DNA from: Planctomycetota bacterium
GTDB taxonomy: Bacteria > Planctomycetota > Phycisphaerae > Phycisphaerales > UBA1924
Direction: 5' to 3'
Length of the DNA: 64,000 nt
Assembly (NCBI GenBank): GCA_033763975.1
Contig: JANRJM010000014.1
Span: 1-64,000 of the forward strand
Shown: one piece after another, positions 1 to 28,024 of the stretch
Numbering within the stretch: position 1 is the first letter of the stretch
Layout of the letters: the number at the start of each line of letters is the position of its first letter
The notes under the pieces: generated by a model
The model's input: the letters and a program-made list of their open reading frames with translations, nothing else
The model's database searches: none
What the model was told of the DNA's origin: nothing
Program-made: the position numbers and the translations under genes

Positions 1-60
1 CCCCCCGCCGGCCCCCGCGCCGGCCCCCGCGCCGGCCCCCGCGCCGGCCCCCGCGCCGGC
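1..60. repeat. 12-bp tandem repeat inside mutS, coding (Ala-Gly)n
   Basis: The unit ccggcccccgcg is repeated almost without variation to the window edge. Read on the minus strand in the mutS frame it gives Ala-Gly-Ala-Gly per unit. It is an in-frame low-complexity expansion in the ATPase domain and may continue outside the window. Confidence 0.9.
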
Positions 61-22227: not shown

Positions 22228-22412
22228 AAGCCGAAACCCTCCTCGCCGAACTCAACCGCCTCCGCAAAGACCTGAAGGAAGACCCCGCCGACCTCGAGTG
22301 GCTCACGCTGCAGCACGCGTTCATCTTCATCTCGTACAAGATGAGCGATTTCCAGAAGTACGTGGAAGAGCAGACGGCCAAGGGCGCGTTCACGCAGTTC
22401 GACGAGCCCTGA
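22224..22412 (+). CDS. Small protein coupled to the zinc transporter genes
   Basis: This is a 62-residue, charged, soluble protein (MKAETLLAELNRLRKDLKED at its N-terminus; LQHAFIFISYKMSDFQKYVE in the middle). The start ATGA overlaps the permease stop. I do not recognise a named family, but the length, codon use and tight coupling support a real gene. It has no cysteine and one histidine, so direct zinc binding looks unlikely. A role in assembly or regulation of the transporter is only a guess. Confidence 0.75.
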   Translation: MKAETLLAELNRLRKDLKEDPADLEWLTLQHAFIFISYKMSDFQKYVEEQTAKGAFTQFDEP

Positions 22413-22453
22413 ACGCGCTTCCGGGCGGGGTCTTTCCGGGCCCCGGTTCAGGG
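22407..22453. terminator. Large hairpin at the end of the zinc operon
   Basis: CCCTGAAC (22407-22414, containing the stop codon of the small gene) pairs with GTTCAGGG (22446-22453), and GC-rich arms inside can extend the structure. There is no U-tract after it, so it could be a processing or stability element or a factor-dependent terminator. Confidence 0.4.
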
Positions 22454-22490
22454 CAAAACCCTCGCTATTTCCCCGCGCTTTCCCATGTTC

Positions 22491-22518
22491 CCACTGTGGA
22501 CTTCCTGTCAATCAGTGG
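22491..22518. promoter_or_regulatory. Inverted repeat CCACTG-N16-CAGTGG upstream of a promoter candidate
   Basis: CCACTG at 22491-22496 and CAGTGG at 22513-22518 form a symmetric pair 11 bases before the -35-like element. It could be an operator for the RNA locus that follows. Confidence 0.3.
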
Positions 22519-22529
22519 AACCTTTTCGC

Positions 22530-22558
22530 TTGCCGCGGCGTACCAAATTTCCGATACT
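22530..22558 (+). promoter_or_regulatory. Sigma-70-like promoter candidate for the structured RNA locus
   Basis: TTGCCG (22530-22535) and GATACT (22553-22558) are 17 bases apart and lie in a short stretch of lower GC content. Each box matches the consensus in four of six positions. A transcript would begin near 22565 and could run to the terminator at 22876. Confidence 0.4.
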
Positions 22559-22559
22559 G

Positions 22560-22751
22560 ATGCATCGCGTGCAGCGCGGGACGAACCCGGGACCAAACCC
22601 CCCGGACCCCTGCGAGGCCCGCGACGACCGCGAAGCCCTTCCGGAAGGCGACGCGGGCGATGAGCCGCGGGCGACGGCCCGCGGAGTAGGAGCCCGGCTT
22701 CGAGGTCTACAGCCCTCGGACGTGCGGGGAGTCTTCTACGAAAGGAGGTGA
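22560..22751 (+). CDS. Possible 63-residue leader protein (doubtful)
   Basis: An ATG at 22560 opens a frame rich in Arg, Pro, Asp and Gly that ends ...FYERR; its TGA stop lies inside the AAAGGAGGTGA sequence of the next element. It would be nearly leaderless if the promoter at 22530 is used. I know no relative. Most of its length could equally be non-coding RNA. It is listed because stop and ribosome binding site overlap in the way seen in coupled leader genes. Confidence 0.25.
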   Translation: MHRVQRGTNPGPNPPDPCEARDDREALPEGDAGDEPRATARGVGARLRGLQPSDVRGVFYERR

Positions 22752-22876
22752 TCCAGTGTCTGACTGTATCAAGGGGCTGCGTCGATAAGACGCACTCGAC
22801 GGACTGCGTCGCGCAGCCCGCTACGACTCGAAACGTAGAGCCGGCCCGGTCGCAAGATCGGGCCGGTTTTTGTTTT
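22740..22876 (+). ncRNA. Structured RNA candidate with 16S-tail complement, mini-ORF and terminator
   Basis: GAAAGGAGGTGATCCAG (22740-22756) is the exact complement of a bacterial 16S rRNA 3' tail. Seven bases after GGAGG a GTG at 22756 opens a 10-codon frame (VSDCIKGLRR) ending with TAA at 22786. GACGCA (22789-22794) can pair perfectly with TGCGTC at 22778-22783 or with TGCGTC at 22805-22810; the second state nests inside GGGCTGCG/CGCAGCCC (22774-22781 with 22812-22819). CTACG/CGTAG (22821-22838) follows, then a terminator. This layout resembles an attenuator or a regulatory RNA. No rightward gene follows; the next gene is convergent. I cannot match it to a known RNA family. Confidence 0.45.
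22841..22876 (+). terminator. Rho-independent terminator, GCAA tetraloop
   Basis: CCGGCCCGGTC pairs with GATCGGGCCGG over 11 bases around a GCAA tetraloop, followed by TTTTTGTTTT. It is strong and points rightward, so it ends a plus-strand transcript from the 22.5-22.8 kb locus. Confidence 0.92.
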
Positions 22877-22903: not shown

Positions 22904-23884
22904 CTACGGCGTGCCCGCATACGCCTCAAGGAACGACGTCACGTCGTCACCGCTCACCACGCCGTCCCGGTCAAGGTCAGCACCTGGTCGGAGTTCCGCC
23001 AGGTCCTGAGAGAACATCTGAAGGTCCAACCCGGTTACTTCGCCATCGCCGTCGATGTCCGCAGACGAGAGCCCCTCGCCCGGGTCGGGTGACCCTTCTT
23101 GAAGTATCGGCACCACCTGCAGCAGATTGAATCGCGAGACCGTCCATGGTGGGGCTTCATCACTCAGCACACCTCGGTGAATCAATCGGACCGTCATGCG
23201 GTATACATCTGGCTCGCTCGGATCGCTCTCGACAAACTGCACGCCCGTGCTCGATTGCGGCACAACAAACGTGCGGCGCGACTCCGCATCCGGCGTGATA
23301 AAGCCGTATTGGGTGCCGGATTCCCGCAGCGAAAGCGCATGCCACTCGTTCGTCAACACGTTAAGAGCCAGTACCTGCCCAATGATCTCCGGATTGCCCT
23401 GATCCTCCACGTGAACCTCGAACGAATGTTGGCTTCGAAAGTCGACGTATGTGGACATCTCCGCGCCTGTCAGCATCTGCAGACGGACACCCACTTCGAT
23501 GCCGGCCTGCTGCCAGAACATCGTCCCCTGCGACGTCACGAGCGAGTACCACTGGGGCACGACCATAGCGGTGCTCTGCTCTCCCGCGGGCGTGCGCAGC
23601 GTGTACTCCAGCATCAGCGGGTCGTGCCCGGGGTAGTCCTGCGGCTCGTGTCCGAACGCCGTGGTCACGCTGTCGATGCTCGCGGCGTACACGTACCGCG
23701 TGAGCTCCACCGTGCCCCTCCACGAATAGGTCTGCCATACCACGTCCCCGGGCGTCCAGAAGATGATCTCGGGCACGTTCTTCGCGCGGAGCATCGCCAG
23801 CAGCATGCGCAGCCCCGCGGGGTTTCCCTGGTAAAAGTCAATATCCCTGTTCTGAGAGTCAGACACATGCGCATACTGAGCCAC
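22904..23884 (-). CDS. C-terminal part of a dockerin-type secreted protein, split by TAG
   Basis: This 326-codon open frame is in the same frame as the gene that ends at 23885 and is separated from it by a single TAG. It begins with a GTG directly after that stop and has no signal peptide and no ribosome binding site of its own. The first 50 residues continue the last strands of the upstream catalytic-like domain (DIDFYQGNPAGLRML, EIIFWTPGDVVW). A beta-rich region follows, and the end is a dockerin-like pair of calcium loops (ADIDGDGEVTGLDL and ADLDRDGVVSGDDV). It is best read as the 3' part of a recently broken gene, or as a readthrough product. Confidence 0.75.
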   Translation of the reverse strand: MAQYAHVSDSQNRDIDFYQGNPAGLRMLLAMLRAKNVPEIIFWTPGDVVWQTYSWRGTVELTRYVYAASIDSVTTAFGHEPQDYPGHDPLMLEYTLRTPAGEQSTAMVVPQWYSLVTSQGTMFWQQAGIEVGVRLQMLTGAEMSTYVDFRSQHSFEVHVEDQGNPEIIGQVLALNVLTNEWHALSLRESGTQYGFITPDAESRRTFVVPQSSTGVQFVESDPSEPDVYRMTVRLIHRGVLSDEAPPWTVSRFNLLQVVPILQEGSPDPGEGLSSADIDGDGEVTGLDLQMFSQDLAELRPGADLDRDGVVSGDDVTSFLEAYAGTP

Positions 23885-25459: not shown

Positions 25460-26572
25460 TTACCGTCGCGCTCGACGCGCTGTTGCGGAGAACGCAAGAA
25501 CGAACATAAAAATCGTGTTGGGAGATGGAATTGAAACGATGAAGCCTTCGACAGGTCCGCCGTTCAACCCTGTATAGCCGACGATCGTGCTTCCATCCGC
25601 CGAGACCGCGGTTGCGGTAAGCAGATTGACCCCCGCCGGCACCTGCACGCCGTGGAAGGCGAGGTAGGCGCTCAGCGGCTCCATGCCGCGGCCAGGCGTC
25701 CAGATCGCCGCGGTCTGGAAGGGAGCGGATACGTACCCCACCACCACACTTCCCGAATCATCCACAGCGGTCGCGGCACTCCGCGAGTAGCCCGATGCAA
25801 AGCCGAGCGCGACGGGCTGGCCGCTGATCCACATAACTGCACCTTGATTCCCCGCACCGTACCTTGTGTCCCCGACTACCACCCTTCCGTCGAAGTTCGT
25901 CCCATAGGCCCTGGCTTCATTCGTCGAGTCGAGCCCCGCAAGAACCTGCATTCCGACGTCCTCACGCCACGCGAACGCTTCGGAGTATCCCCCTCCTCTG
26001 CTGTGCCCGACGATCGTCGTTCCGTCGCGCGAGATCGCCGCGGCCTCGCTGTACACATGCCCGGGCTGCGTGTACCCCAGCCCCACCAGCCCCGTCGTGC
26101 TCGTACAGCGGAACGCCTGCCCGATCGCCCCGTCGAACGACTCGCTGCGGCCGACGACAATCGAGCCGTCGTGATTCGCGTCCTGCGCGAACGCCGACTG
26201 GTACCCGGGCAGGCGGCCAAGGATGTCGAGGCTCGGACTGCCGATAGTCCAGCGGTACGCGTCAATCCCATACTGTCCGACAAGCGTGCCCCCGTCACCG
26301 GAGATGCCGTAGGAATACGACCCGAACGGCAAGCCGAGTACTACCCCGACGTCACGTCGCCCATCCGCACGCGTCCACCAGAAACCCTGCGCCGGGTTGC
26401 CGGGCGACCCGCCGCTGGCAACTCTTCCGTCGTCGGAGAGCCCGTAGGCCCGAGACGAGAATCCCGCCGGCCCGAGGCCCAAGAGGTCGAACGTCTGCCC
26501 CGTCGCCGACGAGGCCACCACGCCCGAGAACAGAGCCGTAGCCAGAGCAAATGTGCCGCGCGGCGATGCCAT
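25460..26572 (-). CDS. HAF-repeat extracellular protein with PEP-CTERM-like end (copy 1)
   Basis: This 370-residue protein has a signal peptide (FSGVVASSATGQ) and about six HAF-type repeats (YGISGDGGTLVGQ, ISRDGTTIVGHS, VDDSGSVVVGYV, VSADGSTIVGYT) that predict a beta-propeller. It ends with IPSPNTIFMFVLAFSATARRARR, a degenerate PEP-CTERM sorting signal: Pro motif, hydrophobic helix, Arg cluster. Such proteins are exported and processed by an exosortase. It is closely related to the gene at 26909, including a long identical block around VVGRSESFDGAIGQAFR. It is followed 51 bases later by the dockerin gene and preceded by a truncated copy of that gene. Confidence 0.85.
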   Translation of the reverse strand: MASPRGTFALATALFSGVVASSATGQTFDLLGLGPAGFSSRAYGLSDDGRVASGGSPGNPAQGFWWTRADGRRDVGVVLGLPFGSYSYGISGDGGTLVGQYGIDAYRWTIGSPSLDILGRLPGYQSAFAQDANHDGSIVVGRSESFDGAIGQAFRCTSTTGLVGLGYTQPGHVYSEAAAISRDGTTIVGHSRGGGYSEAFAWREDVGMQVLAGLDSTNEARAYGTNFDGRVVVGDTRYGAGNQGAVMWISGQPVALGFASGYSRSAATAVDDSGSVVVGYVSAPFQTAAIWTPGRGMEPLSAYLAFHGVQVPAGVNLLTATAVSADGSTIVGYTGLNGGPVEGFIVSIPSPNTIFMFVLAFSATARRARR

Positions 26573-26586
26573 GTCGGGAATATACC

Positions 26587-26844
26587 TCATCCGCCAGAGA
26601 ACGCCAGAGCAATCGTGTTGAAGGCCGTGGGCGAGTCGGAGTGGTTGACCGGATCGGGGAACTGTCCCGGCACATGAATCTGCACGCCGACCATCGAGAC
26701 GAAGAGCGGGTCCGCCGGCACCACATTCGTCGGCGGATGATTCTGCCACATGATGGACAGAGGAAACACGCGATCAGGCTGCGCGGGCTGCGCACGCGCG
26801 GCACTCACGAACACGCAGAGAACGAGAAGCATCATGATGCGCAT
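26587..26844 (-). CDS. Truncated paralogue of the dockerin protein (N-terminal remnant)
   Basis: This 85-residue frame has a signal peptide (CVFVSAARAQ) and then PAQPDRVFPLSIMWQ, which matches the start of the protein encoded from 25408 (PAQPVRVFPLSIMWQ). Similarity fades after about 40 residues and a TGA ends the frame 14 bases before the start of HAF copy 1. It appears to be what is left of a second dockerin-type gene after duplication of the two-gene unit. Whether a short secreted product is made is unknown. Confidence 0.65.
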   Translation of the reverse strand: MRIMMLLVLCVFVSAARAQPAQPDRVFPLSIMWQNHPPTNVVPADPLFVSMVGVQIHVPGQFPDPVNHSDSPTAFNTIALAFSGG

Positions 26845-26908: not shown

Positions 26909-28024
26909 CTACCGATTCGCGCGGCGCGCCGTTGCGGGAAAGAAGATCATAAATATTAAGATTGCACTGGGTGCCGGAACTGTAGCTATCCATCCTTGCA
27001 GACCCGGGCCCGGGATTCCGGTGTACCCCACGAACGTCCGCCCATCCGCCGACACCGCGGTGGCGGTGAGCAGGTTGATCCCCGCCGGCACCTGCACGCC
27101 GTGGAACGCGAGGTAGTCGCTCAGTCGCTCCATGCCGCGATCGGGAGTCCAGATCCCGGCTGTGACTCCAGTCGATCCGCCGAGACCGCCGACGATGACG
27201 TTACCGTCATCGCTTGTGGCATTTGCAATGCTCTGGAAGTACCCGGAAGCTACTCCAAGCGATTCGGATACGCCATTGATCCACCGGACGGCCGTCAGAG
27301 ACGACACGGACACCCCGACGACGATGCTCCCGTCGTGGTTTACGCCGTGTGCACGGGCGTCGATGCCGCCCGCAATATCCGGCAGTGCGACCATACCGCT
27401 CGTCGACGTCCATACGAACGCATCGGAGTAACCCCCCCGGCTGTGCCCGACGATCGTCGTGCCATCGCGCGAGATCGCCGCGGCCTCGCTGTACGCATGC
27501 CCGGGCTGCGTGTACCCCAGCCCTACCAGACCCGTCGCGCTCGTCCACCGGAACGCCTGGCCGATCGCGCCGTCGAACGACTCGCTGCGGCCCACGACAA
27601 CCGAACCGTCGTAACTCGCGTCCTGCGCATAGGCGTTCTGGTACCCCGCTTGGCGCCCCAGGATCTCGAGCGTTCCGCCACGCCGGAATCGGTACGCGTG
27701 AAACGTCGAATCGCCCGCGTACCTCGCCCCGCCGACCGCCGTCGTGCCGTCGCCCGAGACGCCGTAGCCCCAGCCGGCGTACGGAGAAGATGTATTCGGC
27801 GCAAAGTGCTCAAACCCGCCCTGCGGCGTCCAGAAAAAGGCCCCGCCGACGCCGTTGCCGACGACCACGCCCCCGTCGTCGGACAACCCGAACGCCCACT
27901 CGCTCGTGATCCCCGGCGGGCTGCTGAGAAGCTGGAACGTCTGCCCAGCTGCCTCGGGCGCGAACACCCCCACGCCCGAGAACAGGGCCGCGGCGAGGGC
28001 AAGGACGGTGGGTCTGCGGTTCAT
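26909..28024 (-). CDS. HAF-repeat extracellular protein with PEP-CTERM-like end (copy 2)
   Basis: This 371-residue protein has a signal peptide (FAPEAAGQ), HAF-type repeats (FGLSDDGGVVVGN, YGVSGDGTTAVGG, TSDDGNVIVGGL, VSADGRTFVGYT) and a C-terminal VPAPSAILIFMIFFPATARRANR segment that fits a divergent PEP-CTERM signal. It is the upstream copy of a duplicated pair and is highly similar to the protein at 25460 from about residue 130 on. The start ATG at 28024 has no good ribosome binding site. The role is unknown; a surface-exposed propeller is inferred. Confidence 0.85.
   Translation of the reverse strand: MNRRPTVLALAAALFSGVGVFAPEAAGQTFQLLSSPPGITSEWAFGLSDDGGVVVGNGVGGAFFWTPQGGFEHFAPNTSSPYAGWGYGVSGDGTTAVGGARYAGDSTFHAYRFRRGGTLEILGRQAGYQNAYAQDASYDGSVVVGRSESFDGAIGQAFRWTSATGLVGLGYTQPGHAYSEAAAISRDGTTIVGHSRGGYSDAFVWTSTSGMVALPDIAGGIDARAHGVNHDGSIVVGVSVSSLTAVRWINGVSESLGVASGYFQSIANATSDDGNVIVGGLGGSTGVTAGIWTPDRGMERLSDYLAFHGVQVPAGINLLTATAVSADGRTFVGYTGIPGPGLQGWIATVPAPSAILIFMIFFPATARRANR

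Follow-up and report, generated by a model that had tools for sequence, protein, structure and literature searches.

What is a locus for in which an exact complement of the 16S rRNA 3' end stands directly before a ten-codon reading frame and is followed by hairpins and a terminator? It lies in a window of 64,000 nt (the whole stretch of DNA that was analyzed, from a bacterium of the order Phycisphaerales, phylum Planctomycetota), and the original prediction made from that window noted that its parts have the order of an attenuator with nothing to attenuate, and suggested that the RNA itself may act, for instance by holding 30S subunits or by sensing ribosome state. In this work the conservation, fold, reading frames and distribution of the locus were analyzed in related genomes and in other phyla. 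Its features are collected in Table 1.

Table 1. Features of the planctomycete locus, in positions of the window.
Feature	Position	Strand	Evidence or remark
Candidate promoter, TTGCCG / GATACT	22530-22535 / 22553-22558	+	17-base spacer; conserved in relatives
Putative transcript, about 306 bases	22565-22870	+	bounds deduced from the -10 element (start) and the terminator (end)
Helix P1	22625-22635 with 22649-22659	+	two-sided changes in 8/10 pairs; 90.4% of cells paired
Hairpin P2, CCGCGGGC-GACG-GCCCGCGG	22665-22684	+	two-sided changes in 8/8 pairs; 99.0% of cells paired
P3 extension, GTAGGAG/CTTCTAC	22686-22692 / 22733-22739	+	beats all 200 shuffles; at least 6 bp in 47/96 copies
Hairpin P3	22693-22697 with 22724-22728	+	two-sided changes in 3/5 pairs; 97.1% of cells paired
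Landing site: 16S 3'-end complement (extended Shine-Dalgarno), GAAAGGAGGTGATCCAG	22740-22756	+	17 bases, exact
Mini-ORF, 10 codons, MSDCIKGLRR	22756-22788	+	10-18 codon frame in 93/97 copies
Helix P5, GGGCTGCGT/GCGCAGCCC	22774-22782 / 22811-22819	+	two-sided changes in 9/9 pairs; 96.0% of cells paired
Hairpin A, TGCGTC/GACGCA	22778-22794	+	stop codon in loop; at least 4 bp in 77/96 copies
Hairpin B, GACGCA/TGCGTC	22789-22810	+	encloses P6; at least 4 bp in 80/96 copies
P6, inside hairpin B	GACG loop 22798-22801	+	two-sided changes in 4/4 pairs; 89.7% of cells paired
Intrinsic terminator	22837-22870	+	terminator scan; kept in relatives

Distribution of the RNA

A nucleotide search gave matches with an E value of 0.01 or better in 45 of 61 genomes (the window's own included), many of them through short stretches only. 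A covariance model of 207 positions and 39 pairs, built from 25 copies, found the RNA in 188 of the 301 genomes of the order, representing 114 of 148 genera; 185 of the positive genomes have one match and three have two. Under the strict filters used, and with genomes that are partly incomplete, the model had no match in the other 113 of 301, so that its presence throughout the order is not established. When the model was applied to a phylum-wide draw, 24 of 199 genomes were positive, 17 of them outside the order with scores of 24.3 to 69.8 bits, and the exact 17-mer is present in 11 of 392 genomes of the phylum. The counts given below derive from 100 model matches. A second, 53-base match of locus L209 and the matches L199 and L206, in which the site is unrecognisable, were removed to leave 97 copies, and removal of L145, which occupies the same place as L182, left 96; pair counts were made on all 99 distinct rows, with the short L209 match kept. 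The model alignment takes in five contigs titled Phycisphaerales or Phycisphaeraceae (L030, L040, L084, L097, and L103).

A covarying fold with two exclusive hairpins

In the alignment of 99 copies, which was fitted to the model, a procedure that favours the structure, standard pairs fill 94.9% of cells as against 79.4% after shuffling and at most 48.2% after sliding, 32 of the 39 pairs have two-sided changes, and the covariation score is 0.473 (0.192 shuffled, at most 0.107 slid). Two-sided changes were already present in 21 of 39 pairs when RNAalifold was run on a MAFFT alignment of the 25 copies. The pairings are conserved in related genomes, where five of the six helices show two-sided changes; the sixth, which consists of three pairs within the landing site, has none. 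P1 begins with GACGACCG at 22623-22630 and carries CGGGCGATGAG on its 3' side, ACGACCG being found at P1 in 68 of 96 copies, and P3 terminates directly before the landing site. The 5' strand of P5 is made up of the final codons of the mini-ORF and its 3' strand precedes the terminator. A GACG loop caps P2 in 90 and P6 in 89 of the 96 copies, and the two hairpins bearing this same loop stand separately on either side of the landing site.

Two mutually exclusive hairpins sharing GACGCA had been predicted, and both exist in the window, with the common strand at 22789-22794, and recur in relatives. Both are possible in 72 of 96 copies, and in all 72 the middle strand is shared. The mean scores of A and B lie above those of all 200 shuffles. 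When middle strands were exchanged between copies (100 swaps), A remained possible in 57.2 copies on average (maximum 65, observed 77), B in 59.8 (maximum 69, observed 80), and both together in 43.4 (maximum 52, observed 72). These shuffles and swaps ignore the relatedness of the copies, and P5 bases entered both tests, so the outcome supports mutual exclusivity of the hairpins and does not prove it.

The mini-frame and its peptide

The predicted ten-codon frame behind the 16S complement reads GTG TCT GAC TGT ATC AAG GGG CTG CGT CGA TAA, with its stop at 22786-22788 and with the final G of the landing site as the first base of its GTG, and its start, frame and stop proved to be conserved. Among the 97 parsed copies, 93 open a frame of 10-18 codons at the expected place, 90 of them with GTG; if a shift of one or two bases is allowed, the start is GTG in 92 of 96 copies, ATG in two, TTG in one and unplaced in one. 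The distance from start to P5 was followed in the 91 copies in which at least six of seven bases agree with the P5 landmark. It is a multiple of three in 87 of these, with six different values and most indels in threes (exceptions: L021, L023, L212, and L221), and the stop sits 12 bases past the start of P5 in 76. The codon at the stop position, taken over 86 copies, is TAA in 42, TGA in 18 and TAG in 16. Since the spacing runs in threes and the stop keeps its place, the start, frame and stop of the mini-frame are under constraint. Taken together with the fold, this leaves us in hardly any doubt that the locus encodes a real, conserved and structured RNA with a translated mini-frame.

The evidence for selection on the residues themselves gives a mixed picture. 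Over 86 copies, similarity is above that of column-permuted nucleotides at the Cys-Asp-Cys core, at Leu and at the codon before the stop (0, 0, 0, 0, and 1 of 300 permutations attained the observed value) and is not above it at Thr, Lys/Arg, Gly and Arg/His (101, 268, 283, and 61 of 300), in permutations that ignore the relatedness of the copies. Phycisphaerales, one Planctomycetaceae contig and loci found in the phylum of a Myxococcales genome (VSSDCTHTAGEVVSC) all have the DCT core; the peptides otherwise vary by group, for example VSRVILERGVGT in Rhodobacterales and KRCHLAGIAR in Bradyrhizobium. The micropeptide (xDCTKGLRx) might be the product that matters, with the RNA as merely its structured messenger, and the conserved frame, the residues above permutation and the recurrence of DCT across these groups all speak for this. 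Against it stand the different sequences of Rhodobacterales and Bradyrhizobium, the four residues that do not exceed permutation with relatedness uncontrolled, the involvement of the final codons in P5, and the position of most covarying pairs outside the frame. On balance we regard this explanation as unlikely.

The landing site and the 16S tail

The exact 17-base complement was verified against the 3' end of the genome's own 16S gene, which lies on the minus strand of contig C6, matches the Rfam SSU model over its full length and ends in ...CTGGATCACCTCCTTTCTAAGG, the last part of which is complementary to GAAAGGAGGTGATCCAG. The 14-base core AAAGGAGGTGATCC has just two occurrences in the 3.27-Mb assembly, one in the 16S gene and the other at the landing site. 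A duplex of landing site and 16S tail is predicted at -29.9 kcal/mol, whereas no candidate start of the 44 long ORFs of the window does better than -16.7 kcal/mol, and among 18,280 20-mers sampled from the window the landing site alone attains -29.9 kcal/mol. At least 15 contiguous pairs with this genome's 16S tail can be formed in 84 of 96 copies if G-U pairs are included, and in 55 with Watson-Crick pairs. Predicted accessibility of the site is no better than average (unpaired probability of 0.31, as against 0.33 for the median stretch); in 43 of 96 copies its value exceeds that of the median stretch.

The 17 bases span what we take to be the whole free tail of 16S rRNA after helix 45. Such an extent might point to a guide or quality-control RNA for maturation of the 16S 3' end or for 30S integrity, in which the complement would check for an intact free tail. 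In keeping with this, some copies carry CTCCTACGG, which is identical to a stretch of the 16S gene's complement close to the end of that gene and is complementary to a helix-45 strand as well. It stands no more than 110 bases past P5 in 16 of 97 copies (among them L010, L014, L016, and L022) and in 1 of 1,993 control windows, and in the window's own copy it lies past the terminator. The element is, however, present in part of the copies only and, by eye, often sits within a small hairpin of its own, and the conserved start codon, frame and stop indicate translation. We regard such a guide or quality-control role, too, as unlikely.

The transcription unit and its neighbors

A promoter candidate had been predicted with no coordinates attached. 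The one that is conserved in relatives is given in Table 1, and the pattern TTGnnn-16..18-nAnAnT is present in the 130 bases that precede P1 in 62 of 96 copies as against 7 of 846 control windows, though it was picked after the alignment had been viewed and the control windows are all upstream and mostly coding. The remaining 34 copies have no such pattern, and a generic promoter scan at its threshold did not report the element at 22530-22558. The strong terminator that had been predicted is present and conserved, with a terminator-like site no more than 150 bases past P5 in 93 of 96 copies and in 151 of 1,404 control windows; under a stricter energy cut the copies stay at 93 and the control windows drop to 27. 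The 63-codon frame said to end inside the 16S complement does exist (ATG at 22560, stop TGA at 22749-22751) and is not conserved. Among the 80 copies with TGA in the site the median upstream opening is 28 codons and at least 60 open codons are found in 23, the value for the window being 112, and the frame was dropped as a part of the element.

The statement that no gene follows holds in the window, where the first long frame downstream (22904-23884) is convergent on the minus strand. In relatives, simple ORF calls for 94 copies put the next frame on the plus strand 48 times and on the minus strand 46 times, and the largest downstream clusters of similar proteins, drawn up without a family search, hold 8 of 96 loci each; no gene was found consistently downstream of the RNA among the 96 loci. 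Upstream in the window are a small ORF and a frame read as a znuB-type permease, and upstream clusters comprise 32 loci (with one protein that reads as a znuB-type permease) and 14 loci (read as FtsK-like), all on simple ORF calls with names given by reading in place of a family search. Further along the window, two adjoining minus-strand frames (25460-26749 and 26909-28024) encode similar proteins with DGS(I/V)VVGRSESFDGAIGQAFR and related repeats in common and look like a tandem duplication.

These neighborhoods bear on whether the locus attenuates transcription of a gene that follows it or encodes a leader peptide for one. The sequence of promoter, leader frame, exclusive hairpins and terminator is the one expected of an attenuator, but the strand of the next frame is balanced, downstream clusters are small and the window's own next long frame is convergent. 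With no consistent same-strand gene downstream, a cis attenuator was rejected, and we consider it very improbable. A misplaced antisense fragment of the 16S gene, or a coincidental match, would account for 17 exact bases and has next to no probability, as the flanks are unlike 16S, a minus-strand 16S fragment was looked for and is absent (no SSU match in the window, no similarity beyond the tail), and the site is conserved at one structural place across the order; the locus is neither chance nor a 16S fragment. The conserved promoter and terminator, the covarying helices, the mostly single copy and the balanced strand of the next gene instead lend good support, on these sequence comparisons, to the suggestion that the functional unit is the RNA itself.

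Similar loci in other phyla

An exact scan with AAGGAGGTGATCCAGTG returned at least 117 stretches. Among the matches listed (80) the titles are mostly alphaproteobacterial; eight are Phycisphaerales, Phycisphaerae or Phycisphaeraceae, and the few further ones are Krumholzibacteriia, Acidobacteria, Myxococcales, Lujinxingiaceae, SAR92, Nitrosomonadales and Planctomycetaceae. A frame of 9-26 codons follows in 134 of 138 unique 16-mer loci, Phycisphaerales included and the four without such a frame scored as misses, compared with 1,584 of 8,254 control GTGs. Around single genomes, with the centre genome counted, the 16-mer was present in 14 of 58 genomes when the sample was the phylum of a Krumholzibacteriia genome and in 8 of 57 for that of a Myxococcales genome. 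For the phylum of an Acidobacteria genome the figure was 1 of 60, and for the class to which a Brevundimonas genome belongs it was 3 of 58; reversed-pattern controls gave none among the matches listed. Scans with an exact pattern miss variants.

In RNAalifold consensus folds made group by group, which carry no test of covariation, either the frame or the landing site is covered by a helix. The Shine-Dalgarno sequence has an internal CACCTC-type stretch as its partner in the Rhodobacterales (38 sequences) and in Bradyrhizobium (10); in the Krumholzibacteriia-type (13, including L255, whose frame is unrelated and does not align) and Myxococcales-type (8) loci, GGAGGTGG-like codons pair with a later CCACC; and in the other Rhizobiales-type loci (39) the first frame codons pair downstream. 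Sequestration of the Shine-Dalgarno sequence is reflected in unpaired probability in the Rhodobacterales (median 0.13 vs. 0.33), and single-sequence folding gives it no support in Bradyrhizobium (0.32 vs. 0.29). Rhodobacterales loci such as L024, L031, and L050 have an ACCTCC, a mimic of the 16S tail, before the terminator as predicted partner of the landing site, which in such folding models is a possible internal competitor for the 30S subunit. Bradyrhizobium loci such as L059 and L066 have a TCACCTC inside the 14-codon frame that pairs with the landing site in the consensus fold.

The planctomycete model scored 21.6 to 55 bits at seven planctomycete loci; at the remaining 45 loci it did not exceed 22.6 bits, a good part of which came from the landing site. 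A GACTGTA(C) soon after the start is common to several groups and, with the shared layout, suggests common descent across phyla but does not prove it. When 20 loci were compared with the 4,227 families of Rfam, CC2171 passed its cut-off in three of the eight alphaproteobacterial loci (L039, L053, and L076), and no family was found at this place in the other 17 of the 20 (Bradyrhizobium, two; Rhodobacterales, two; Ancylobacter, one; Krumholzibacteriia-type, Lujinxingiaceae, Acidobacteria, planctomycete, and others).

Discussion

Our preferred reading, to which we give a probability of roughly 60%, is that the locus produces a free-standing small mRNA or regulatory RNA that captures 30S subunits, its fold changing as the mini-frame is translated. 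Points against it are the merely average accessibility predicted for the landing site, the hairpin tests in which relatedness is uncontrolled, the 113 genomes of the order in which the model had no match, the copies that lack the promoter pattern, and the terminator-like sites in control windows. The complement would capture 30S subunits with a free 3' tail. Full pairing over 17 bases would reach the first base of the GTG, and the duplex must therefore partly open before the start can be read. A ribosome on the mini-frame would then cover the 5' strands of P5 and A, which could free the middle strand so that B forms and the fold changes, and this refolding would probably alter the life span of the RNA. 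The RNA could in this way register, and slightly titrate, initiation-competent 30S subunits. Holding of 30S subunits or sensing of ribosome state, as first suggested, would fit both the anatomy of the locus and the behavior ascribed to rreB. An RNA that is mostly single-copy, that bears a full-length address for the 30S subunit and that no gene follows suggests a layer of regulation acting on the small subunit itself. The planctomycete copies, with their deep covarying alignment, defined two-hairpin switch and conserved loops, make it possible to test for 30S capture, for translation-dependent refolding and for a partner that recognises the GACG loops.

In the literature searched, where the matches inspected were partial and largely off topic, we found no planctomycete description of this RNA and no work following rreB, and the portions of PMC9373788, PMC10117765, and PMC5082802 available to us contain nothing on it. 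The "Rhodopirellula-1" motif of Proteobacteria and Planctomycetes, given in a table of PMC2864571 as an uncertain RNA and probably cis-regulatory, could overlap with it.

An exceptionally strong Shine-Dalgarno sequence that can single out a class of 30S particles is also described, in the available part of PMC9976891, for rpsU of Flavobacteriales, and the likeness extends to a subset of 30S subunits told apart by the state of the 16S tail. In that system, however, the sequence drives the bS21 gene (PMC9976891, same part), whereas here bS21 is separate and, in the five cases read, has an ordinary start region. It was found elsewhere than the RNA locus in 24 of 26 genomes, and its start regions in our genome and four relatives, taken at the ATG just before the domain, reach -7.6 to -13.6 kcal/mol, one alternative upstream TTG giving -17.2 kcal/mol. 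Autoregulation of bS21 through an extended Shine-Dalgarno sequence was accordingly rejected. In 4 of the 24 genomes with bS21 (G001, G003, G011, and G015) the RNA lies 3-7 kb from that gene, a nearness we take as local gene order because the start regions read there are without an extended Shine-Dalgarno sequence.

The present RNA would resemble 6S RNA in the idea of an RNA that mimics the ideal nucleic-acid substrate of a central machine and is then used by it as a template. The two differ in their target, 6S RNA acting on RNA polymerase, and no Rfam 6S model matches at this place at its cut-off. As a speculation of low probability, an ancient class of small-subunit RNAs across Planctomycetota, Alphaproteobacteria, Krumholzibacteriota and others might be the translation counterpart of 6S RNA, with an initiation-site mimic that parks the 30S subunit and releases it upon mini-frame translation and refolding, and with twin GACG loops that dock a partner.

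Closer comparisons are found among the Alphaproteobacteria. The consensus of Rfam RF01867 (CC2171, a Caulobacter sRNA), for which the part of PMC5596092 at hand lists a Mesorhizobium candidate, has the same GAAAGGAGGUGAUCCAGUGUCU near its start and a GC-rich terminal hairpin. Membership was rejected: at the Rfam cut-offs the whole window gave only one tRNA, and four of five planctomycete relatives match RF01867 at 25.2 to 27.5 bits where 75 are needed. Other Rfam matches, reported by E value, were taken for chance.

With 17 bases of complement before a 10-codon GTG frame, the locus has one of the features of the rre type, a complement to the 16S 3' end of at least 16 nt before a short ORF. The rreB of Bradyrhizobiaceae reportedly encodes 14 amino acids and the rreR of Rhodobacter and Roseobacter 18, and loci of these lengths and groups were recovered in our scans. 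For rreB it is reported that it has a Shine-Dalgarno sequence of 17 bases and co-sediments with 30S subunits, that it is weakly translated owing to this length and to its GTG, and that changing the start codon to a stop stabilises its transcript; we know of no agreed function for these alphaproteobacterial counterparts. By eye, MSDCIKGLRR is unlike VSYTKRCHLAGIAR or VSRVILERGVGT, and the planctomycete RNA was set aside as rreB or rreR proper. What is shared is a complement of 16-17 bases to the 16S 3' end right before a GTG mini-ORF, on a short free-standing transcript that in the planctomycetes is putative and predicted from the conserved promoter and terminator. The planctomycete RNA differs in peptide and host and in its larger fold, with P1, P2, P3, P5, P6 and the GACG loops, and its model has no pairing of the Shine-Dalgarno sequence with an internal CACCTC-type stretch, unlike the folds of Rhodobacterales and Bradyrhizobium. 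Grouped by function, it is probably the planctomycete counterpart of the alphaproteobacterial small mRNAs with an extended Shine-Dalgarno sequence (rreB, rreR, and CC2171), and by its sequence it looks like a structured variant that widens this already known type.
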